From the NCBI GenBank assembly GCA_944390015.1, contig CALXOL010000009.1, forward strand, positions 1-64,000: DNA of 64,000 nucleotides. Direction: 5' to 3'. Origin of the DNA: an uncultured Spirochaetaceae bacterium (GTDB lineage Bacteria; Spirochaetota; Spirochaetia; Sphaerochaetales; Sphaerochaetaceae). The position numbers and the translations under genes were made by a program. This document shows positions 1,669 to 11,944 of this stretch, piece by piece; positions within the stretch are counted from its first letter, which is position 1; each line of letters opens with the position of its first letter. The notes below the pieces were generated by a model that searched no databases, was not told where the DNA came from, and saw only the letters and a program-made list of their open reading frames with translations.

Positions 1669-2706
1669 TTATTTAAAATACCTGTTTAAATCATATGGGG
1701 AGAATATCCCCTTTGATGTGACAATCCCTGATATAAGATGGGGTGGTGTCATGTCGAAGGCAGGATAGTATCCCTTTATGTTCTCGTTTATTGGTGCCGT
1801 TCGAACTCCCATTGCTTCAAGACTTTCATCGGGGTTTCTCATCTCAATTTTAACCGTATCATGAGTAATATGATACTTATCTGGAGAGCCTGTAACAAAC
1901 ATGGGTATTCCAAAATATTTTGCTGCTATTGCAATCTGGCTTGTTCCTACCTTATTAAATACATAACCATCTCTTGCAATTACATCAGCAGCGCAAGTAA
2001 ATACATCAATCTTTTCGTTTACCATGACATATGCTGGCATGTTATCCGTTATTACAGTTGTTTCAAAGCCCATTTCTGAGCATACTGATGCCGTTAGACG
2101 TGCTCCTTGAAAGTATGGGCGGGTTTCAGGACAGAACAGCTTTATATTTTTACCTCTATTCTTACATTCTCTCAACATCATTCCAAGAATTGTTTCAGCA
2201 AAACACTGTGTCAATATTTTTCCATCATCTGGGAACATATCTACAAGATATTCAGCGGTTTTTGCAATTTCATTATACCTTATATTATTTGATTCTATTA
2301 CATGATTCCTTATTGCGATATCAACTGGTTTTCCTTCTGACATTGCCATTTCTGCAACTGGAATGCAGGATTGGCATATGGCTGACATTTTTGCTTTTGT
2401 TGTTGGCCGGGCATCTGCTATTTCTAGGGCAGCTTTTTTTATATATTCAATCTGTTGTTGCTTATTAAGATCTTTACATTCCCACGCTGCTAATGCAATT
2501 CCCATGGGTGCTGCTGTATATGGGCCTGCGCTTTGAGTGACCATATCCCTGATGGCATCTCTTACCTCCAGATAAGTTTTGCACGTAACAAAACTCTTTT
2601 TTTTAGGATATATTCTTCTATCCAGTATTCTGACTTCTCCGTTTTCATACCATGCAATGTTTTCATACCTTAATAAATAGGCAAGATTATAATCAGATCT
2701 ATCCAT
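1669..2706 (-). CDS. MtnA-like sugar-1-phosphate aldose-ketose isomerase
   Basis: Cytoplasmic isomerase of the MtnA / eIF2B-alpha-like family, which converts 5-methylthioribose 1-phosphate, 5-deoxyribose 1-phosphate or related aldose 1-phosphates to ketose 1-phosphates. Family landmarks are present: ARPT (99-102), the catalytic cysteine in ILTQCFAE (Cys168), ETRPYFQGARLTA (194-206), the catalytic aspartate in AADVIARDGYVFNKVGT (Asp241) and the following GTSQIAIAAKYFGIP. The length, 345 residues, is normal. Divergent from the regulator/transporter/aldolase/phosphorylase set, it supplies the step between phosphorolysis and aldol cleavage. A perfect TATAAT (complement of 2728-2733) and AAGGAG six bases before the ATG support the start. 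Substrate could be ribose, 5-deoxyribose or methylthioribose 1-phosphate; sequence alone does not decide. Confidence 0.85.
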   Translation of the reverse strand: MDRSDYNLAYLLRYENIAWYENGEVRILDRRIYPKKKSFVTCKTYLEVRDAIRDMVTQSAGPYTAAPMGIALAAWECKDLNKQQQIEYIKKAALEIADARPTTKAKMSAICQSCIPVAEMAMSEGKPVDIAIRNHVIESNNIRYNEIAKTAEYLVDMFPDDGKILTQCFAETILGMMLRECKNRGKNIKLFCPETRPYFQGARLTASVCSEMGFETTVITDNMPAYVMVNEKIDVFTCAADVIARDGYVFNKVGTSQIAIAAKYFGIPMFVTGSPDKYHITHDTVKIEMRNPDESLEAMGVRTAPINENIKGYYPAFDMTPPHLISGIVTSKGIFSPYDLNRYFK

Positions 2707-2739
2707 ATAATACTCCTTTTTACCTTTATTATAACATAA

Positions 2740-2811
2740 GTGGAAAATTTTGAAATGAAAATGACTAAAATTTTAATATTTTTGATTTTATTGCTAATAA
2801 TTGTGGAAAAT
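2740..2811. promoter_or_regulatory. direct repeats in divergent promoter region, candidate regulator sites
   Basis: GTGGAAAAT occurs at 2740-2748 and 2803-2811, 63 bp apart (about six helical turns), flanking the AT-rich region between the isomerase and deoR-type promoters. The first copy is next to the isomerase -10 element; the second lies just before the TTGACA of the regulator promoter. The placement suits a DeoR-family repressor bridging both promoters. Function is inferred. Confidence 0.4.
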
Positions 2812-2823
2812 AATCATTTTTAT

Positions 2824-2851
2824 TTGACATTTTGATAAATGAATTTACAAT
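2824..2851 (+). promoter_or_regulatory. sigma70-type promoter of the deoR-type operon
   Basis: TTGACA at 2824-2829, 16-bp spacer, TACAAT at 2846-2851. The predicted transcript begins near 2858, at the AGGAAAG Shine-Dalgarno, so translation must start at ATG 2869 rather than the upstream ATG at 2839. Confidence 0.6.
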
Positions 2852-2868
2852 TAAGACAGGAAAGAAAA

Positions 2869-3645
2869 ATGACAGCAAATGAAAGAAGAGCCAAAATATT
2901 AGATTATGTCAGGCATTGTACTTCTGTTTCAATACAGGAATTAAGCGGGTTTTTTGATGTTAGCGAGGAATCCATTCGCAGAGATTTAGTTATTTTAGAG
3001 AAAAATGGAAAAATAAAGAGAACTTTCGGTGGTGCTATTTCATTGGAGTCCCATGTAAGAACATCTGTACCATTTGAATTGCGATGCGGTGCTAAAAAGG
3101 CAGCTAAACGTTGTATTGCAGAAAAGTGTGTTCCTTTAATAAAAAGCGCAGATATTATTTTTTTAGATTGTAGTTCTACTTCATATTATTTAGCTCAGCG
3201 ACTTATTGATTTCAAAGATATTACAGTTATTACGAATTCTGTAGCAATTGCAAATTTAATTCAAACAGAATCTCAGGTTGATGTAATCGTATTGGGAGGG
3301 CGGTTTGACAGGAATCTATTTTGCTATACAGGGATGGATACGGTTAGGGCAATTTCTTCTTTTAAGGCGACAAAAGCATTTATTTCCTGCTCGGGTATCA
3401 GCATGGATTCTGGTTTGACAGACTCTGATGAGATGCAGTGTGAAATAAGAAGAGCTATGATTGAGAATTCTCTACAGGCGTTTCATATTGTCGATTATAC
3501 GAAATTCGGTAAAATTCGACTCTATCCTGTAGGGCAGTTGACAGAGAAATCAACGGTTATTTGTGAAAGTGTTCTTCCTGAAGAATGGCAGGAATATTTT
3601 GAAGTAATGCATGTTGCTTCAATATATGGGGACTTAACGAGTTAG
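2869..3645 (+). CDS. DeoR-family transcriptional regulator
   Basis: DNA-binding repressor with an N-terminal DeoR winged helix (ERRAKILDYVRHCTSVSIQ, then SEESIRRDLVILEKNGKIKRTFGGA) and a C-terminal DeoR sensor domain of the sugar-phosphate isomerase fold (DCSSTSYYLAQRL, TNSVAIANL, VIVLGGRFDRNLFCYTG). Such regulators usually respond to a phosphorylated sugar, here plausibly the pentose 1-phosphate or ketose 1-phosphate made by the locus. The start at 2869 is chosen because AGGAAAG lies seven bases upstream and the promoter overlaps the upstream ATG. First gene of a run continuing through two oxidoreductases, the importer, aldolase and phosphorylase; the next gene starts 16 bp downstream. Confidence 0.88.
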   Translation: MTANERRAKILDYVRHCTSVSIQELSGFFDVSEESIRRDLVILEKNGKIKRTFGGAISLESHVRTSVPFELRCGAKKAAKRCIAEKCVPLIKSADIIFLDCSSTSYYLAQRLIDFKDITVITNSVAIANLIQTESQVDVIVLGGRFDRNLFCYTGMDTVRAISSFKATKAFISCSGISMDSGLTDSDEMQCEIRRAMIENSLQAFHIVDYTKFGKIRLYPVGQLTEKSTVICESVLPEEWQEYFEVMHVASIYGDLTS

Positions 3646-3661
3646 ATGAGGAGGGGTGTTT

Positions 3662-4729
3662 ATGAGAATCGGCGTTATTGGACATGGAATGATGGGAGAG
3701 CGGCATATTGGTATTCTTAGAGGACTTGGTTTATCTGTCGATGCAGTTATGGGAAGGGATTATGACCGTGTTGCAACATTTGCGCATAATAACAACATTG
3801 CATTTGCAACAACAAAAATGGAAGATTTTATATCAAGAGGGATTGATGTTATTCATGTCTGCACGCCTCCTGAAAATCATTATGATGTAGTGAAAATGGC
3901 CCTGGAAGCTGATATGAGTGTTCTTTGCGAGAAGCCATTTGTAATTGATCCTTGCCAGGGAGAAGAACTAATAAAGCTTTCTAAAAAAACAATCACTGGT
4001 GTTGCATTTAATAATCGTTTCCATAGTGCGATTGAGCGGGCAAAAAAACGTATTGGGGAACATGAGATTGGAGAGCCTTTAATAATACATGGTTCATATT
4101 TGCAGGAGTTTCATGCTCTGCCTTCATCTTTTTCTTGGAGATATATATCGAAAGAAGGGGGGCCAATGCTTGCAACTAGTGAAATAGGATCCCATTGGAT
4201 TGATCTTTTGAGGTATATCACAGGAGTAGAAATTAAAGAGGTTTCTGCAAGTTTTGGTAAATTTTTTAATCAGCGGAAACTTGATGATGGAAAAATGTAC
4301 CCATTAAGCCATGAAGGTGGTGATAAAATTACCGTGGATTCTGATAATGCGGCAATAGTTACATTCCGATTAAGTAATGGGGGGCTTGCAAATGCAGTTT
4401 TTTCAGAACTTACTCCTGGTAGACCTAATTATATCGAGATTAATGTAACTGGTAGTAGCGGAGCTCTGTGGTGGAATTCCGAGCAGTTCACGGATCTTGT
4501 TATCGGTAAGAAGTTCAGCCCTAGAATTACAGACGTAAGCGGTTATGCAACCGATACATCATTGGCAAGTCGGAAAATGATACAGGAATTCTACAGGGAT
4601 GTATCACAGAAAAAAAGGTCAGATGATTCCCATTATGCTACTTTCGAGGATGGTCTGGAAAATGCAAAGATTTGCCAAGCAATTTATAGAAGTGCAAATA
4701 ATAACTCAAAGTGGGAGGTTGTCGTATGA
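3662..4729 (+). CDS. Gfo/Idh/MocA-family NAD(P)-dependent oxidoreductase
   Basis: Dehydrogenase of the Gfo/Idh/MocA family, acting on a hydroxyl of a sugar, cyclitol or related polyol. Rossmann motif GVIGHGMMG near residues 4-12, conserved EKP at 90-92, and a C-terminal domain with SHWIDLLRY (His178, Asp181), the family's usual catalytic His/Asp region. ATG 3662 is preferred over GTG 3656 because GAGGAGGGG lies immediately upstream. The stop overlaps the next start (ATGA). Its place between the regulator and the nucleoside-type importer implies work on the same substrate class, but no step in the simple phosphorylase-isomerase-aldolase route needs it. Substrate unknown. Confidence 0.85.
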   Translation: MRIGVIGHGMMGERHIGILRGLGLSVDAVMGRDYDRVATFAHNNNIAFATTKMEDFISRGIDVIHVCTPPENHYDVVKMALEADMSVLCEKPFVIDPCQGEELIKLSKKTITGVAFNNRFHSAIERAKKRIGEHEIGEPLIIHGSYLQEFHALPSSFSWRYISKEGGPMLATSEIGSHWIDLLRYITGVEIKEVSASFGKFFNQRKLDDGKMYPLSHEGGDKITVDSDNAAIVTFRLSNGGLANAVFSELTPGRPNYIEINVTGSSGALWWNSEQFTDLVIGKKFSPRITDVSGYATDTSLASRKMIQEFYRDVSQKKRSDDSHYATFEDGLENAKICQAIYRSANNNSKWEVVV

Positions 4730-5487
4730 AGCATCGTGTCGTATTGGTAACTGGAGCAGGAAGGGGCTCAGGCGAAGCTATTGCAAAAAAGTTTCTTAGT
4801 GCAGGAGATATCGTAGTAGCTACAGATCTAGAAGCCCCTTCTTGGGAGTATGAAAATCAAGATGAGAATCTCTTACGTTTTGCAATGGACGTGGGAAATG
4901 AAAAAGAAATCGTATCTGTGATTTCGAAGGTCAATAGCCTGACAGAAGGTATCAGCATTTTAGTAAATAATGCAGGTATAAGTAATGGCGGGGGGAGTCT
5001 TTTAAATTGCACTTCTGAACGTTTTGATAAGTTGTATGCAGTAAATTTAAGAGGCTGTTTTTTAACGATGCGAGAAGTTGCTAAAAAGCTCATTAGTGAA
5101 AAAAAAGGAGGAGCCTTTATTAATGTAGCATCGATTGCCGGAAAAAATGGATTTGCCGATACATCTTTGTATGGAGCTACGAAAGCAGGAGTTATAGGGC
5201 TTACAAGGTGTCTTGCAATTGAATTAGGTCCATATGACATAACCGTCAATGCGATTTGTCCAGGAAGTGTTGATACGCCGATGTTGGCTGGGCTATTTAA
5301 AAGAAGAGCGGAGGCGCAGAACATTACTATCGAAGAAGCAAAGCATCAGATGGCTTTAACGATTCCAATGCAAAGGTTACAGCAGCCTGAGGATCTTGGT
5401 GAATTAGTTTATTTTCTGGCATCTAAAGGTGCAAGAAATATCAGTGGGGAGAGTATAAATCTTGATGGCGGAGTTGTTAGAGATTAG
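4726..5487 (+). CDS. short-chain dehydrogenase/reductase (SDR)
   Basis: Classical SDR of 253 residues. Nucleotide-binding TGAGRGSG (9-16), NNAG (81-84), catalytic Ser136 (INVASIAG), Tyr149 and Lys153 (YGATK), and the usual C-terminal LDGGVV. Probably NAD(P)-dependent oxidation or reduction of a sugar, polyol or small aldehyde/ketone. Start at 4726 from GGGAGG and a four-base ATGA overlap with the preceding gene, indicating translational coupling. In this context it could reduce the aldehyde released by the aldolase or act with the Gfo/Idh/MocA enzyme on a modified sugar; both are guesses. Confidence 0.87.
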   Translation: MKHRVVLVTGAGRGSGEAIAKKFLSAGDIVVATDLEAPSWEYENQDENLLRFAMDVGNEKEIVSVISKVNSLTEGISILVNNAGISNGGGSLLNCTSERFDKLYAVNLRGCFLTMREVAKKLISEKKGGAFINVASIAGKNGFADTSLYGATKAGVIGLTRCLAIELGPYDITVNAICPGSVDTPMLAGLFKRRAEAQNITIEEAKHQMALTIPMQRLQQPEDLGELVYFLASKGARNISGESINLDGGVVRD

Positions 5488-5544
5488 TTTGAGTGTATTT
5501 TTAGTTTTTATTTGATGTGCTGATTGCATGTTATGGAGGTTTTT

Positions 5545-6588
5545 ATGAAAAAAGGTGTTTTATTTTTCATGGTTTTGATTCTTGCAGTTTGTGCAATATT
5601 TGCAGGAGGAACATCTGAGAGTGATGATACGTCTTCATCTACAATCAGAGCAGCACTTTTGAGTAATCCCAGAGGTACCAGCCTTTTTGTCAATCTTGGT
5701 ATTGATGGGTTTATTGAAGCTTGCGAGAAGTGGGGTATTCAAGGTGATGTAATCGAATGTAAAAATACTGCAGAATACGAAGAGAATGGAAGGGCTGCTG
5801 CCAATGAAGGATATGATCTGATCCTTGGCTCTAGTTGGGAATCAGGTTCAATTCTTAGTGAACTTGCAGAAATATATGATGACATTGCATTTGGAATCTC
5901 CGATACCATAGTAGATTCTCCAAATGTAAAGTGTATTAATTTCTGGGATGCTGAAGGCGCATATTTAGTTGGCGTAATTGCCGCTTTGACAGTTGATGGA
6001 GAAAGCCATAATTATGGAAGCATACATGTTTCAAATTCTGAAAGTTCTTTTAAGTGGAGATATGGGTTCTCTCAAGGAGTTCTTTCAATTGATCCAGAGG
6101 CAAAATTTACATACAACTATGTTAATGGTTATTCTGAAGTAAACCTTGCTTATGAAATGGCTCTTCAGCAATATGAACTTGGTTGCAAGTTTATTAACTC
6201 TTGTTGTGCCGGAGGAGATCCTGGAACTTTGCAGGCAGCGAAAGAGAAAGGATTCTATACTGCTGGTCAGGATGTAGATTTAACGACTCCTGATAATCCG
6301 TGGATTGTAACATCTCAGCTTAAAAAAGCTGATAAGGCCATAGCATACTTGGTTGATTGCTATATGAGTGGTAACTGGAATACAGAAAATGAAAATCTGG
6401 GTGTAGCAGACAATGTTATAGGAGCTGTATGGGCAACAGATGAGAGTGTGAATCCACGTCATCCGAATCTTTCTGATGAGGATATGATAATAATAAAGCA
6501 GGCGGTTGAAGATATTAGTTCTGGAAAGATTGATATGAGAAATCTTCCTGATTGGCAAACGACAGAGATTCCGTTGATTGAACTTTAA
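5545..6588 (+). CDS. BMP-family ABC transporter substrate-binding protein
   Basis: Periplasmic binding protein of the BMP/Med/PnrA family, which delivers purine nucleosides and related sugars to ABC importers. A Sec signal peptide (MKKGVLFFMVLILAVCAIFA) ends in AGGTSES, the pattern seen in spirochaete binding proteins. There is no conventional lipobox cysteine at the cleavage site, so it may be released rather than lipidated. BMP-like segments include a Gly-rich YDLILGSSWESG region and FWDAEGAYLVGVIAA. ATG 5545 is chosen because GGAGG lies just upstream. It is followed by a perfect stem-loop and then the ABC ATPase gene, so it is the first transporter gene. Ligand inferred from the linked phosphorylase. 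Confidence 0.87.
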   Translation: MKKGVLFFMVLILAVCAIFAGGTSESDDTSSSTIRAALLSNPRGTSLFVNLGIDGFIEACEKWGIQGDVIECKNTAEYEENGRAAANEGYDLILGSSWESGSILSELAEIYDDIAFGISDTIVDSPNVKCINFWDAEGAYLVGVIAALTVDGESHNYGSIHVSNSESSFKWRYGFSQGVLSIDPEAKFTYNYVNGYSEVNLAYEMALQQYELGCKFINSCCAGGDPGTLQAAKEKGFYTAGQDVDLTTPDNPWIVTSQLKKADKAIAYLVDCYMSGNWNTENENLGVADNVIGAVWATDESVNPRHPNLSDEDMIIIKQAVEDISSGKIDMRNLPDWQTTEIPLIEL

Positions 6589-6594
6589 TAAATG

Positions 6595-6618
6595 GGAGCA
6601 GGATACATTTCCTGCTCC
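6595..6618 (+). promoter_or_regulatory. stem-loop between binding-protein and ATPase genes
   Basis: Perfect 9-bp stem GGAGCAGGA (6595-6603) / TCCTGCTCC (6610-6618) with a 6-nt loop and no T-tract. The position suits an mRNA-stabilising or partial-attenuation element that keeps binding-protein message in excess over transporter message. Similar hairpins sit next to the other two binding-protein genes of the window. Confidence 0.6.
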
Positions 6619-6635
6619 GACTTCTGAAATAAAAT

Positions 6636-8150
6636 ATGCTTATAGAAATGAAGAACATAACCAAGAGGTATGGTTCCTTGGTTGCAAATGATAATGTAAG
6701 TATTACTTTAAAAAAAGGTGAGATTCTTGCTATTGTCGGTGAGAATGGAGCTGGAAAAAGTACATTAATGAAAATTCTTTATGGACTCGAATCTTATGAT
6801 AGTGGAGAGATTCTCATTAATGGAAAGCCAGTACGTTTTTCTTCTCCTTATGATGCTATAAAGAACAGTATCGGGATGGTTCAGCAGCATTTTATGCTTT
6901 TCCCTCCTTTTTCCGCAGCGGAAAATATTGTGTATGGAAATGAGCCAAGAAGGGGAATTTTCTTTGATAAAAAAGAAGCATATAGGCTTGTAGAGGAGCT
7001 TTGTAGGAAATACAATCTTTATATAGATCCTAAAATAAAGGTAAAAGATTGTTCTGTTGGCTTGCAACAACGTATTGAAATCTTAAAAGTTTTATTTCAG
7101 CAAGTAGATATAATAATTTTTGATGAACCTTCCGCCGTCCTCGCACCTCAAGAGATTGATAACTTTCTTCAAACTGTTCTGGACTTGAAAAAAGCAGGTA
7201 AAAGTATAATTCTCATTACACATAAATTAAATGAAGTGATGGCAGTCGCAGATTATGTTACTGTAATGAGAAACGGCAAAGTCGTAAAGAAAATGCCAAA
7301 GCATGAGACATCAATAGAAGAACTTTCCTATCTGATGGTAGGACATCATCTGGAAGAAAGAGAAATAGAGGAAATAGAACCAGAGGAGGAGATTCTTGCT
7401 GTCAGTAATCTAACAAAAACAAGTCCAGATGGAGTCAAATTACTTGATGATGTCAACATAAGCGTTAGACGTGGAGAAATAGTTGGAATTGCAGGAGTCT
7501 CTGGTAATGGGCAAAGTGAACTTATACAGTGTATTTCGGGCCTAGAACATGCAGATTCTGGTAAAATAGTTTTAAATGGTATTGATGTAACAAATGCATC
7601 TGTTTCTGCAATTCGTGAAGCAGGATGTGCCTGCATCCCTGAGGATAGGTATTACTGGGGTAGTGCCGCAGAAGCTTCGTTGGAAGAGAACTGCATCATG
7701 TATCATTATCAGCGAAAATCAGAATTAATGAAAAATGGTTTTCTAAATAGTAGAAATGTCTCGTTATTTTCTGAGACGATCTTGAAAGATTTTGATGTCA
7801 AGCATACAAGTTCCTCGCAGTCAATGAAGGATTTATCAGGAGGAAACGCACAGAAACTTATAGTAGGAAGAGAATATATGCAAAATACTCCTCTCTTGAT
7901 AGCTGCTGAACCTACAAGGGGAATAGATATAGGTGCAATTGAATATATCCATGGAAGGTTGCTGGAAAAGAGGCAGAAAAAAGACGCAATACTTCTTATT
8001 TCTTCAGAACTATCTGAGATTATTGAACTAAGTGATCGTATATATGTGATGTGCTCAGGCAGAATCAATGGCGAATTTTCCAGAGATGAAGCTACAAGAG
8101 AAAAGATCGGTTATTTGATGATGGGAGGTAAGAATGACGATGAAATGTAA
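6636..8150 (+). CDS. duplicated ABC transporter ATP-binding protein, nucleoside/sugar type
   Basis: Two fused nucleotide-binding domains, as in RbsA- and NupO-type importers. Domain 1: Walker A GENGAGKST (35-43), Walker B IIIFDEPSAVLAP near 160, H-loop LITHK near 193. Domain 2: a degenerate Walker A (GVSGNGQSEL near 285), LSGGNAQKLIVGRE signature near 400, and LLIAAEPTRGIDIG. A deviant second Walker A is normal for this class. At 504 residues it is full length. No strong Shine-Dalgarno precedes ATG 6636, which follows the stem-loop. The 3' end overlaps the first permease gene by 17 bp. Powers import of the BMP-protein ligand, probably a nucleoside. Confidence 0.9.
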   Translation: MLIEMKNITKRYGSLVANDNVSITLKKGEILAIVGENGAGKSTLMKILYGLESYDSGEILINGKPVRFSSPYDAIKNSIGMVQQHFMLFPPFSAAENIVYGNEPRRGIFFDKKEAYRLVEELCRKYNLYIDPKIKVKDCSVGLQQRIEILKVLFQQVDIIIFDEPSAVLAPQEIDNFLQTVLDLKKAGKSIILITHKLNEVMAVADYVTVMRNGKVVKKMPKHETSIEELSYLMVGHHLEEREIEEIEPEEEILAVSNLTKTSPDGVKLLDDVNISVRRGEIVGIAGVSGNGQSELIQCISGLEHADSGKIVLNGIDVTNASVSAIREAGCACIPEDRYYWGSAAEASLEENCIMYHYQRKSELMKNGFLNSRNVSLFSETILKDFDVKHTSSSQSMKDLSGGNAQKLIVGREYMQNTPLLIAAEPTRGIDIGAIEYIHGRLLEKRQKKDAILLISSELSEIIELSDRIYVMCSGRINGEFSRDEATREKIGYLMMGGKNDDEM

Positions 8151-9225
8151 TAGGAAATTTGTAACCGTAGCCTCTCCTTTTTTTGCAATTCTGATAGGTC
8201 TTACTTTCGGTGCAGCCGTTATGATTGCAGTCGGAACCAATCCTTTCTCTGCATATCGACAGATGTTTTCAAAGTCTTTCTTCGATATTTATTATCTTGG
8301 ACAGACTTTAGTGAAAAGTGCTCCAATTATGCTTTCCGGTGTTGCTGCTGCAATAGCTTGGAGGGCAGGATATATTAATCTTGGGATGCAGGGGCAGATG
8401 TGTGTCGGTGGCTTATGTGCTACATTGGTTGCTCTTTTCTTTCCTGTTAAGTCCTGGTGGGTAACTATATTATGTTTTTGTGTTGGTATGACAGCAGGTG
8501 CTATCTGGGCGCTTATACCGACTTATCTTGATTATAAGTTTGATGTGTCAATTATCATCTGTACGCTGATGATGAACTATGCGACGAATTTCTTAACAGA
8601 TTACTTCGTTTCTGCTCCAATTAAAGATACAGCAGGAGATGGACTAGCTATGCAGTCCCCTCAGATTGCAGAAGCGCTTAGGTTTTATAGGTTCTCTCCT
8701 AAGAATGCTATGAATACAAGTGTATTTCTCTCTATTGCCGTTGTTATCCTGATTGCCATTTTCTTGAAAAAATCTAAATTTGGGTATGAGTCTAAAATGA
8801 CAGGGCTGAACAGGGAATTTGCTAGGTATGGTGGAATTAAATCTACGAAAATCATGTTTATGACAATGGCCTTATCTGGAGCACTGTGCGGATTTGCCGC
8901 ATGTATAGAAATTTTTGGTGCAAGGTATCGCTATGTAAATGCAATGTTCACTTCTACAAGTTATTCCTGGACAGGGCTTATGGCGATGCTGATTGCAGAT
9001 TATAACCCTATAATGACGATGGTTTATTCTATTTTCCTTGCAGGCCTTGCGATAGGAGGACAGGCACTTCAAAGATCTGTTGGCCTTCCGATGCAGATAT
9101 CTGATATTATTCAGTGTAGTATTACACTTTTTGTTTCAATAAAACTCCTATTCAATTTTCAGAAACTAAAAATAAATAAGAAGCCAAATCATTTAGAACG
9201 GGATGAGGAGGTGGAACATGAATAG
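8134..9225 (+). CDS. ABC transporter permease (BPD_transp_2 type), first subunit
   Basis: Inner-membrane permease with about ten hydrophobic segments, of the branched-chain/ribose/nucleoside permease family (NupP-like). Family regions: GQTLVKSAPIMLSGVAAAIAW and AGYINLGMQGQMCVGG, the latter close to the conserved N-I-G-x-E/Q-G-Q motif. GGGAGG seven bases before ATG 8134 supports the start, inside the end of the ATPase gene. The stop overlaps the second permease by 8 bp. It pairs with that permease as the heterodimeric channel. Confidence 0.9.
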   Translation: MTMKCNRKFVTVASPFFAILIGLTFGAAVMIAVGTNPFSAYRQMFSKSFFDIYYLGQTLVKSAPIMLSGVAAAIAWRAGYINLGMQGQMCVGGLCATLVALFFPVKSWWVTILCFCVGMTAGAIWALIPTYLDYKFDVSIIICTLMMNYATNFLTDYFVSAPIKDTAGDGLAMQSPQIAEALRFYRFSPKNAMNTSVFLSIAVVILIAIFLKKSKFGYESKMTGLNREFARYGGIKSTKIMFMTMALSGALCGFAACIEIFGARYRYVNAMFTSTSYSWTGLMAMLIADYNPIMTMVYSIFLAGLAIGGQALQRSVGLPMQISDIIQCSITLFVSIKLLFNFQKLKINKKPNHLERDEEVEHE

Positions 9226-10117
9226 TTTATATTTTGCTGCTATTATAAATTCTACTTTCCGTTACGCAACGCCAGTCCTTTTTGCCGCATTAGGTAGTCT
9301 TCTTTGTTCTAGGGGCAATGTTTTTAATGTTGCTCTTGAAGGTCAGATGCTTGCAGCGGCCTTTGCCGCAATCGTTATTAATTTCTATACAAAAAATATG
9401 GTTTTGTCTATTCTTGCTGCGATTTGTGCAGGTTTGCTTGTCTCTTCTGTAGTTGCCTTATTTCAGATCAAATTAAAAGCACATGATATGGTTGTTGGAA
9501 CTACCATTAACCTATTCATTCAAAGTGCTACTGCTTTCTTAATGCAAATTGTTTTCGGCTCACGAGGTATGGTTCAAGGACATGGAATGGTATCCCTTAC
9601 GAAAATTGATTTGAATTTTTTGAGCTGGTCTCCTTTCTTATATAGGGCATTTGAGAATCTGAGCATTTTAGATTATGCTAGCTATATAATTGCAATAATC
9701 GTCTATTTCTATCTTTTTAAGACGGTACGAGGTTTCCATCTTCGTTCCGTTGGCATTAGATATAATGCAGCAAAAAGTTTAGGTATAAACTCTCAAAAAA
9801 TGCAAATGAATGTAGTTCTTATTTCAGGGATTCTCTGTGGGCTAGGTGGAGTATCGCTATGCATGGGCGGAGTTACTGTCTTTGTTGAGAATATGACTGC
9901 AGGAAGAGGTTTTATCGCAATGGGGGCTTCAAGTATGGCACAGGCACATCCAATAATGGCAATTTTCTCGAGTTTATTCTTTGGGGCAACTATTTCTTTG
10001 TCCAAAACGCTTCAAAAGGTTATCAATTCTTATTTTACAGAAACATTTCCATATATCTGCACAATTCTTGCAATTACAATTTATGGAGCGATTTCAAAAG
10101 CAAAGAAGAAAAAATAA
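9218..10117 (+). CDS. ABC transporter permease (BPD_transp_2 type), second subunit
   Basis: Second membrane subunit of the same importer (NupQ-like). The family hallmark is present near residue 25: ATPVLFAALGSLLCSRGNV followed by NVALEGQMLAAAFAA. About nine hydrophobic segments. ATG 9218 is preferred over 9203 because GAGGAGG lies at 9206-9212 and the start then overlaps the preceding gene by eight bases. The aldolase gene begins 23 bp downstream, so import and catabolism are probably on one message. Confidence 0.9.
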   Translation: MNSLYFAAIINSTFRYATPVLFAALGSLLCSRGNVFNVALEGQMLAAAFAAIVINFYTKNMVLSILAAICAGLLVSSVVALFQIKLKAHDMVVGTTINLFIQSATAFLMQIVFGSRGMVQGHGMVSLTKIDLNFLSWSPFLYRAFENLSILDYASYIIAIIVYFYLFKTVRGFHLRSVGIRYNAAKSLGINSQKMQMNVVLISGILCGLGGVSLCMGGVTVFVENMTAGRGFIAMGASSMAQAHPIMAIFSSLFFGATISLSKTLQKVINSYFTETFPYICTILAITIYGAISKAKKKK

Positions 10118-10139
10118 TAGCATAAGAAAAGGAGGAAGT

Positions 10140-10742
10140 ATGAAATATCAGAAGGTTAGGGATAGCATCGTTAATTATTCTAAACAGATGTATCAGGATA
10201 AGCTTGTTTCTGCAACAAGTGGAAATATAAGTGTAAGAGTTAATAATACTTCAGATATTTTTGCTATAACTCCTAGTTCTGAGAACTATATGACACTAAC
10301 CGCAGATCGAATTGTTATCATGAAAACCAGCGGGGAAATTGTATATTGTCCTGAAAATGGAAGACCTTCATCAGAATGGAAGATGCATGCGAAAATATTT
10401 GAGCGCAGAAGTGATGTTCAAGCAATTGTTCATACACACTCTCCATATGCGACTTCCTTTGCGGTTTTAAGAGAATATATACCTGTTATTCTGATAGAAA
10501 TGATACCATGGTTGGGAGGTTCAATTCCGGTAGCAGAATATGCTCCTGCGGGGTCATCGGAATTGGGAGATAAAACAGTGGAAGCTCTGGGAAAAAGAAA
10601 TGGTTGTATACTAGCCAATCATGGAGTTGTTGCGGTCGCTTCTGATATAAATCTTGCATATGTTCGAGCTTCTTATATTGAGGATGCGGGAAAGATTTAT
10701 CATCTTTCTCGAACTGTTGGTACGCCAATTATTCTTAATTAA
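10140..10742 (+). CDS. class II (fuculose/deoxyribulose 1-phosphate type) aldolase
   Basis: Zinc-dependent class II aldolase/adducin family, cleaving a ketose 1-phosphate to dihydroxyacetone phosphate plus an aldehyde. Catalytic glutamate in SSEWKMH (Glu79), zinc ligands His98 and His100 (HTH) and His161 (NHG), phosphate-binding TSGNIS (26-31). The Glu-His-His spacings (19 and 63) equal those of L-fuculose-1-phosphate aldolase. The 200-residue length is slightly short but complete. ATG 10140 follows AAAGGAGG; an open frame upstream is only overlap with the permease. With the MtnA-like isomerase and phosphorylase this is the cleavage step of a DHAP shunt: 5-deoxyribulose 1-phosphate would give acetaldehyde, ribulose 1-phosphate glycolaldehyde. 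Confidence 0.85.
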   Translation: MKYQKVRDSIVNYSKQMYQDKLVSATSGNISVRVNNTSDIFAITPSSENYMTLTADRIVIMKTSGEIVYCPENGRPSSEWKMHAKIFERRSDVQAIVHTHSPYATSFAVLREYIPVILIEMIPWLGGSIPVAEYAPAGSSELGDKTVEALGKRNGCILANHGVVAVASDINLAYVRASYIEDAGKIYHLSRTVGTPIILN

Positions 10743-10827
10743 CAGAGCGAAAAATAGTAAGAGACTTAAGATTAGTACGTCATTTGTTTAGCGGGTTTTT
10801 TCTCGCATTAAAAAAGAGGAGATGTTT

Positions 10828-11658
10828 ATGATTAATACCCCCAACTATGAGTATTACAAGAAAATAGCTGATTTTATCTATTCTAAAATTAATTTTGTCC
10901 CTGATGTTGGAATAATTCTCGGTACGGGCTGTTCCCGTTTTGCTGAAAGAATAGAAAAAGCTGTGATTATTTCATTTGCAGAAATACCTAATTTTCTGCT
11001 AGCTACAAATAGTTCTCATCCAGGAAAACTTATAGCTGGTGAAGTAAACGGGAAAAAAGTAATTTGTCTTAATGGAAGGTTTCATTATTACGAAGGATAT
11101 TCCTTTGAAGAATTAAGTATGCCTGTTAGAGTGTTAAAAATACTAGGGATAACAAAACTAATCATAACAAATGCCTCTGGTGCTGTTAATACAGGGTATA
11201 AGCCTGGTGATCTTATGATAATAAAGGATCATATTAAACTTTATGGAGGAAGTCCCGTTAGAGGGCAGAATATAGATGAGTTCGGACCTAGGTTTTTTGG
11301 AGTTTCAGATATGTATACCAGAGAAATGAGGAAGATTGCAATGGCATGTGCAAAGACTTGTAAATTAAGAGTTCATGAAGGCGTATATATGTATACACCA
11401 GGACCTCAGTTTGAGACACCTGCAGAAATAAAAGCAATGAGGCTGCTTGGAGTCGATGCGGTGGGTATGTCTACGGTTACAGAAGCCTTGACGGCAGCTC
11501 ACTGTAAATTAAATTTATTGGGAATTGCCTTAATTACCAATATGGCCTCGGGTGTTATTGAATTTGTTGATGAGGATGGTTCAAAAATTTCGGATGTAGT
11601 AGCAGACGTTTCAGATGATTTTTGCAATTATTTAGAAATGATTATAAAAGCTATTTGA
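10828..11658 (+). CDS. purine nucleoside phosphorylase, trimeric (PunA/PNP) type
   Basis: Phosphorolyses a purine nucleoside to base plus (deoxy)ribose 1-phosphate. Family motifs in order: GIILGTG (28-34), SHPGK phosphate loop (63-67), GRFHYYEGYS (83-92), ITNASGAVN, GPRFFGVSDMY, YTPGPQFETPAE with Glu196 aligned to the purine-binding glutamate, VGMSTVTEA, and TNMASG with Asn238 aligned to the asparagine that favours 6-oxopurines. Length 276, normal. ATG 10828 is chosen because GAGGAG ends seven bases upstream; the ATG at 10822 abuts it. It follows the aldolase after an 85-bp gap with no clear terminator. A relative specialised for 5'-deoxy- or 5'-methylthio-nucleosides cannot be excluded. Confidence 0.88.
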   Translation: MINTPNYEYYKKIADFIYSKINFVPDVGIILGTGCSRFAERIEKAVIISFAEIPNFLLATNSSHPGKLIAGEVNGKKVICLNGRFHYYEGYSFEELSMPVRVLKILGITKLIITNASGAVNTGYKPGDLMIIKDHIKLYGGSPVRGQNIDEFGPRFFGVSDMYTREMRKIAMACAKTCKLRVHEGVYMYTPGPQFETPAEIKAMRLLGVDAVGMSTVTEALTAAHCKLNLLGIALITNMASGVIEFVDEDGSKISDVVADVSDDFCNYLEMIIKAI

Positions 11659-11944
11659 ATCAGTTAAAGAAGCTGAATCCATAGGATTAATGAAAGCCAT
11701 AGAAAGAACAATTTGCATTAGAGTTATTTTAGAATGCATAGGTAGTAGTTAGAACTATGTCTTTATTGATTGCGAATAAAAATTGGATTTTCATGAAAAG
11801 GTCTGTGACTTAGAGAAGGGTATTGGTAAAAACATGAACGCTCTAGATGATATAAAGTAACCTTATTACTTTTGCAAAAGTTGTGAATATAGCTGTTAAT
11901 AAAAAAACAACAGCATGGGAGGCTTTAGTCTATGTAAGATGAAA
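11659..11944. other. 286-bp region without a gene
   Basis: AT-rich sequence following the phosphorylase gene with multiple stops in all frames. It leads directly into an IS3-type transposase remnant and may itself be decayed mobile DNA. Confidence 0.5.

Follow-up and report, generated by a model that had tools for sequence, protein, structure and literature searches.

Analysis of a 64,000-nucleotide stretch from an uncultured Spirochaetaceae bacterium (contig CALXOL010000009.1, positions 1 to 64,000 of the forward strand; the whole stretch is hereafter called the window), part of a 2.19 Mb draft assembly (GCA_944390015.1), led to a cluster of ten genes at 1669-11658, in which an isomerase, a class II aldolase and a trimeric-type purine nucleoside phosphorylase (PNP) stand beside a BMP-type ATP-binding cassette (ABC) importer and a DeoR-family regulator. 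On balance we favour, with limited confidence, the reading of this cluster as an importer-fed, kinase-free dihydroxyacetone phosphate (DHAP) shunt for 5'-deoxynucleosides. The substrates would be by-products of S-adenosylmethionine (SAM) use such as 5'-deoxyadenosine and methylthioadenosine, or the inosine forms that arise from them by deamination. Nearly all cells produce these two by-products, and 5'-deoxyadenosine is toxic to the very enzymes that release it. In the proposed route, the BMP-type importer would take up the nucleoside, and a deaminase, here perhaps an amidohydrolase encoded on another contig (C2), would convert the adenine form to the hypoxanthine form. The PNP would then release the base and 5-deoxyribose 1-phosphate, the isomerase would turn the latter into 5-deoxyribulose 1-phosphate, and the aldolase would cleave this to DHAP and acetaldehyde (or methylthioacetaldehyde), with the DeoR protein as the probable sensor of a phosphorylated sugar. 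Importer and enzymes would in this way serve one pathway running in the direction given.

Active-site residues of the three enzymes

The PNP keeps Glu198 and Asn240 and carries Gly253 in place of a histidine, its positions being matched to human Glu201, Asn243 and His257 through motifs which we take to be equivalent. Glu201 and Asn243 of PNP recognise 6-oxopurines (PMC9916683), and human His257 contacts the 5'-hydroxyl (PMC12648331). The equivalents of the first two residues are kept in 34/34 PNPs of clusters and in 21/21 other PNPs of the order. The His257 equivalent was found in 5/34 of the former vs 20/21 of the latter, and the second trimeric-type PNP of the same genome retains it within the motif NHEEV. 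The cluster set consists of the PNP of the window, 30 rows near an isomerase and three PNPs (L186, L189, L190) from genomes without one; none was dropped, although L045 and L056 come from the same genome, L058 and L060 lie on the other strand and L109 and L120 are merely 27-29% alike. The other set consists of the second PNP of the same genome and 20 more (L166-L185) taken from a longer list. With the 5'-hydroxyl-binding His absent and the Glu/Asn pair kept, we read the cluster PNP as one that cleaves 6-oxopurine nucleosides bearing a 5' group other than hydroxyl, and its action on 5'-deoxy substrates would be the source of 5-deoxypentose 1-phosphate. Absence of this His from a trimeric-type PNP could serve as a residue-level marker that separates phosphorylases of by-products from those of ordinary purine salvage, to which the family models used here give the same name. 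PNPs at least 53% identical to that of the window occur in 10/139 genomes of the order, seven of them among the 27 genomes that have the isomerase clade described below (Fisher p = 0.0004, kinship ignored). The step in identity between cluster-type and other PNPs is small (53 vs 52%) and that in score is larger (308 vs 269 bits). Two further genomes (G077 and G080) have a PNP of only 45% identity no more than 1 kb from an isomerase of 51-52% identity and enter neither count.

The isomerase belongs to the MtnA/DrdI family, and its catalytic Cys168 and Asp241 are invariant in 16/16 aligned isomerases, its own included. It falls in a clade of 51-76% identity that spans Bacillota, Chloroflexota, Mycoplasmatota and Spirochaetota and is present in 27/139 genomes of the order; as a query, the isomerase matched 95/139 of these genomes at E 1e-40. 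Its identity to seven plasmid records named mtnA is 29-34%. That it scores over the cut-off of the methylthioribose-1-phosphate isomerase subfamily model PRK05720 would suit a branch of methionine salvage, with methylthioadenosine or methylthioinosine as the true substrate, sulfur as the aim and methylthioacetaldehyde passing on to methanethiol, and the PNP pocket could presumably take methylthio as well as methyl. We consider this improbable, given that the isomerase does not reach the cut-off of TIGR00512, the MtnA equivalog model, and that the genome has a separate MtnA, a paralog on contig C2 placed by the tree with a named Bacillus MtnA. The genome also holds, on contig C3 (L135:8661-10373), a phosphorylase (PF01048 match) adjoining a third, divergent IF-2B paralog; in our reading this phosphorylase is MTAP-like, which would again argue against methionine salvage as the function of the cluster. 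None of the ten cluster genes is a sulfur gene, and no mtnB, mtnC or mtnD model exceeded its cut-off among the models listed for these ten genes, the rest of the genome not having been searched.

The aldolase is of the DrdA/Ald2 type within class II. Its closest structure in the PDB is 6btd, which is DrdA, a 5-deoxyribulose-1-phosphate aldolase (PMC6079011). Glu79 aligns with the catalytic Glu76 of DrdA, and Glu79, His98, His100 and His161 were all confirmed in the translation. None of the 25 NCBIfam models listed (of 30) reaches its cut-off with this protein, the mtnB model scoring 71 bits against a cut-off of 137. The prediction of a DHAP-shunt-like isomerase and aldolase accompanied by a phosphorylase, an importer and a DeoR regulator is supported by families and residues, and also by the recurrence of the set in other genomes.

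Partners of the isomerase in other loci

We annotated 100 loci (L034-L133), of which 98 were counted after removal of two duplicates; 80 of the named loci represent the best 80 of 581 confirmed isomerase relatives. Partners were identified with one or two BLAST queries per family, and any match within 9 kb of the isomerase was counted irrespective of strand. PNP was found in 27 loci, deaminase in 34, aldolase in 34, an MtnK-type kinase in 16 and the BMP importer with both permeases in 10 (the kinase of L113, the one scanned, reaches 387 bits with TIGR01767, cut-off 275). PNP and/or deaminase occur in 38/98 loci and the kinase in 16/98, and the two never occur together (0/98): PNP or deaminase is present in 0/16 kinase loci vs 38/82 of the others (Fisher p = 0.00016, kinship ignored). 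DrdK accepts 5-deoxyribose and methylthioribose and refuses ribose (PMC6079011). This specificity, together with the mutual exclusion, indicates that one isomerase seems to be fed by two alternative routes to 5-deoxypentose 1-phosphate.

Since no locus combines the kinase with PNP/deaminase, the pattern points to 5-deoxypentose 1-phosphates, and 5'-deoxynucleosides consequently fit better than inosine or guanosine. The original prediction, which had the shunt use external nucleosides and give DHAP with acetaldehyde, glycolaldehyde or methylthioacetaldehyde, can be taken to mean these ordinary nucleosides as the main substrates, a claim disfavoured by the missing 5'-hydroxyl His, the swap of kinase and phosphorylase and the neighbouring deaminase. 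On that reading, imported inosine or guanosine would yield ribose 1-phosphate, then ribulose 1-phosphate and finally DHAP and glycolaldehyde, in replacement of phosphopentomutase. In its favour, deoB was not found in the genome with a model that matches 7/14 controls, other types of phosphopentomutase not having been searched, and the cluster of the window has no deaminase. Against it, the cluster PNP lacks the His although another PNP of the genome keeps it, the partner that replaces PNP/deaminase in other loci is from a kinase family in which the member assayed does not accept ribose, and the closest aldolase structure is DrdA. We regard the use of ordinary nucleosides as rather unlikely, albeit the most serious competitor of the 5'-deoxynucleoside route.

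The deaminase is found in 34/38 relatives that have PNP or deaminase. The candidate of this genome lies on contig C2 beside MtnA: at L134:10219-12879, MtnA, a 106-aa open reading frame (ORF), cupin-like in our reading, and an amidohydrolase resembling 5'-deoxyadenosine deaminase form a small unit opposite ABC-importer-like genes. Scans of this amidohydrolase and of two others taken from clusters all gave matches to models of the 5'-deoxyadenosine-deaminase type under the cut-offs.

A number of observations weigh against the 5'-deoxynucleoside shunt. The deaminase that a deamination-first route would need is absent from the cluster of the window, so that the claim of a "complete" shunt does not hold for the cluster itself, and PRK07228 scores 310-329 bits on the three amidohydrolases against a cut-off of 522, other models scoring higher. 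Five cluster PNPs (L058, L060, L089, L097 and L111) retain the His, and one of the 21 other PNPs (L185) lacks it. As many as 39/98 loci have no kinase, PNP, deaminase or aldolase near the isomerase, and the same four partners are lacking in 17/57 loci that have 4 kb on both sides. Genomes G129 and G133 carry aldolase, PNP and deaminase, and G025 carries PNP, without the isomerase. Two uridine-phosphorylase-like genes in a Solobacterium cluster (L126) would suit ordinary nucleosides. Finally, two genomes with the importer subfamily (G181 and G282, 40% identical) gave no isomerase at E 1e-20.

Some of these loci present features of their own. Within 9 kb of the isomerase, 12 of the 39 loci have an AMP-binding, acyl-CoA-ligase-like gene (L064, L068, L069, L072, L083, L085, L086, L088, L096, L106, L107 and L127; one, L106, was scanned). 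The aldolase-PNP-deaminase clusters of G129 and G133 (L189 and L190) come from genomes that are 73 and 93% complete, and no isomerase was detected there at E 1e-20. In L126 the two uridine-phosphorylase-like genes (8616-11904) lie beside importer, aldolase, isomerase and PNP, and pyrimidine nucleosides may be used by this cluster too.

The BMP-type importer and its relatives

A BMP lipoprotein, an ATPase and two permeases follow one another in a single run, as expected for a BMP-type ABC importer. The PDB matches of the BMP protein include Lbp, 6yab-type lipoproteins, BmpA and TmpC (best E-value = 3e-19). It is predicted to be a nucleoside binder, and two residues aligned with their counterparts in Lbp, an Asp and a Lys, probably belong to its pocket. 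BMP proteins of known ligand, namely PnrA/TmpC, BmpA and pneumococcal PnrA, belong to the same family, though distantly, and bind ordinary nucleosides (PMC13325309), which speaks for inosine or guanosine as the cargo, as does the occurrence of the importer subfamily without an isomerase in two genomes. A 9-pair hairpin at 6595-6618 lies in the gap that separates the BMP gene from the ATPase gene and could raise the dose of the binding protein. In the genus of the window, several BMP homologues (G067, G053, G039, G066 and others) have a single in-frame stop and are perhaps pseudogenes or errors.

Importer and isomerase were found together in 10/98 other loci of four phyla, showing that their association is not confined to this one genome. 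These ten loci (four from the family of the window, two from Mycoplasmatota, one from Chloroflexota and three from Bacillota) all have PNP or deaminase (10/10), and none has the kinase (0/10). Across the order, the BMP subfamily (at least 64% identity) occurs in 7/139 genomes, in all seven next to the isomerase (a contig end interrupts one of these loci), and the next BMP proteins follow at about 30% identity, with values up to 37% over shorter alignments. In the phylum sample, the subfamily was met at E 1e-38 or better in 4/392 genomes. A strict linkage of importer and isomerase was considered and rejected on account of G181 and G282, whose contigs are too short to show most genes around the importer. 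In the BMP tree, 14/14 isomerase-linked BMPs are grouped apart from 23 others with a support of 100; this quick tree raised long-branch warnings, the 14 had been collected through BLAST with two of their number as queries, and the 23 all come from one family.

Placed on the isomerase tree, likewise a quick one, the importer label requires 7 changes, at least 6 of them forced by starred branches, and a single origin of the link was therefore dismissed. The label is nevertheless more clustered than in 500/500 shuffles. These changes, together with the divergent isomerase gene and the importer subfamily that occurs without an isomerase, would be compatible with a loose neighbourhood in which the importer takes up nucleosides in general and the shunt enzymes, independently of it, dispose of the cell's own 5'-deoxyadenosine as a housekeeping task. 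We hold this for the least probable explanation of all, as aldolase and PNP lie downstream of the permeases in L034-L036 just as in the window, importer and shunt genes recur jointly in four phyla, and the label is clustered. The joint recurrence of isomerase, importer, aldolase and PNP in other genomes also indicates that the grouping is not due to chance.

A wider form of the 5'-deoxynucleoside reading can be put forward tentatively, and we give it somewhat less than an even chance. A BMP importer subfamily would be dedicated to 5'-deoxynucleosides and would belong to a one-operon, deamination-first, kinase-free DHAP shunt, in which the 5' pocket of the PNP has been re-tuned by loss of the His; in Spirochaetota, Chloroflexota, Mycoplasmatota and Bacillota it would allow anaerobes to feed on the SAM by-products of their neighbours. 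If the cluster does import 5'-deoxynucleosides, 5'-deoxyadenosine and methylthioadenosine would be shared nutrients in microbial communities.

Described systems, gene order and accessory genes

The chemistry is known, and the arrangement of importer and phosphorylase looks new. The drdK-drdI-drdA genes of Bacillus thuringiensis represent the same isomerase and aldolase families with the same product logic, and the paper describing them reports clusters with kinase or phosphorylase in six phyla, of which four of those depicted include putative sugar transporters (Beaudoin et al., 2018; PMC6079011). The phosphorylase of those clusters is 5'-methylthioadenosine-phosphorylase-like, whereas the window has an inosine-type trimeric PNP with a BMP-type ABC importer, and its relatives a deaminase. 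The DHAP shunt of E. coli is similar in its external 5'-deoxynucleosides, DeoR-family regulator and linked putative transporter gene, but differs in its entry through a nucleosidase and a kinase and in its single putative permease (PMC10986504; PMC12632272). Its operon, mtnK-mtnA-ald2 with a putative permease and the DeoR-type repressor MtnR, was reported in 2025 (PMC12632272). In Methanocaldococcus jannaschii, deaminase, MtiP and isomerase likewise lead from 5'-deoxyinosine through 5-deoxyribose 1-phosphate to the isomerase step; this route is archaeal and relies on promiscuous enzymes, its aldolase step is only proposed, and the section that describes it names no importer (PMC6302742). In Rhodospirillum rubrum, growth on methylthioadenosine raises MetNIQ-type transporters, a link to transport through a different family (PMC4958253). 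In Brachyspira hyodysenteriae, a kinase-isomerase pair was assigned to methionine salvage in a 2009 annotation (PMC2650404). Three Brachyspira loci of our set (L117, L118 and L124) have the isomerase family with a kinase, and differ from the window in that no PNP, deaminase or BMP importer was found near the isomerase. A shunt with its own importer and regulator had been thought possibly undescribed; this does not hold for transporter genes and a DeoR-type regulator as such, both being published (PMC6079011; PMC12632272). It may well stand for the form with PNP, deaminase and BMP importer, which was not found in a literature judged mostly by titles and abstracts, with most subscription papers out of reach.

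Pfam and NCBIfam scans agree with the ten family calls of the original prediction at the same coordinates, and the catalytic residues it named were recovered (Table 1). The nucleoside importer had been called genetically fused to the shunt: the genes are neighbours, but no fusion exists. From DeoR to PNP, the genes overlap or are separated by at most 79 bases, with the start of the aldolase set at 10140, downstream of an AGGAGG site, which fits a single transcription unit. Compared with L034 and L035, the cluster has neither the deaminase nor the major facilitator superfamily (MFS) gene 3' of PNP; compared with L034-L036, its DeoR gene is on the opposite strand and the two oxidoreductase genes are inserted.

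Table 1. Features of the cluster at 1669-11658 of the window
Feature	Position	Strand	Evidence
MtnA/DrdI-like pentose-1-phosphate isomerase, IF-2B fold, Cys168, Asp241	1669..2706	-	PF01008 148 bits; PRK05720 over cut-off
Divergent control region	2707..2868	.	TTGACA-16-TACAAT at 2824-2851; likely DeoR ATG 2869
DeoR-family regulator	2839..3645, likely start 2869	+	PF00455, PF08220
Gfo/Idh/MocA oxidoreductase, accessory	3656..4729	+	PF01408, PF02894
Short-chain dehydrogenase (SDR), accessory	4711..5487	+	PF13561
BMP-type substrate-binding lipoprotein, predicted nucleoside binder	5524..6588	+	PF02608
ABC transporter ATPase, tandem domains	6636..8150	+	PF00005, two stretches
ABC permease 1	8134..9225	+	PF02653 (BPD_transp_2)
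ABC permease 2	9203..10117	+	PF02653 (BPD_transp_2)
Class II aldolase, DrdA/FucA-like, Glu79, His98, His100, His161	10140..10742	+	PF00596; best PDB match 6btd
Trimeric-type PNP, Gly253, Glu198, Asn240	10822..11658	+	PRK08202 over cut-off

The DeoR protein is 27-35% identical to the DeoR proteins of related clusters (27-29% to those of L034-L036). The promoter-like motif of the control region is a consensus match only, and the whole region gives 43 matches vs 38.4 in shuffles.

The oxidoreductases had been predicted to belong to the shunt, and this was not borne out. Gfo/Idh/MocA was found near the isomerase in 0/98 other loci and SDR-like genes (26-32% identity) in 8/98, and both are absent from L034-L036 and L040; they were accordingly rejected as core parts. 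Gfo/Idh/MocA matches at E 1e-50 occur in 5/139 genomes of the order, the source genome included, and in the other four (G025, G075, G013 and G016) the stretches examined, two of them short contigs, contained no shunt gene; an ABC ATPase lies near the relative in G025, G013 and G016. The SDR exceeds the cut-off of none of the 25 NCBIfam models listed (of 225). Given the eight loci with SDR-like genes, an SDR of some kind could be of use to the pathway. The two oxidoreductases at 3656-5487 are a local addition, perhaps acting on the aldehyde or on another sugar.

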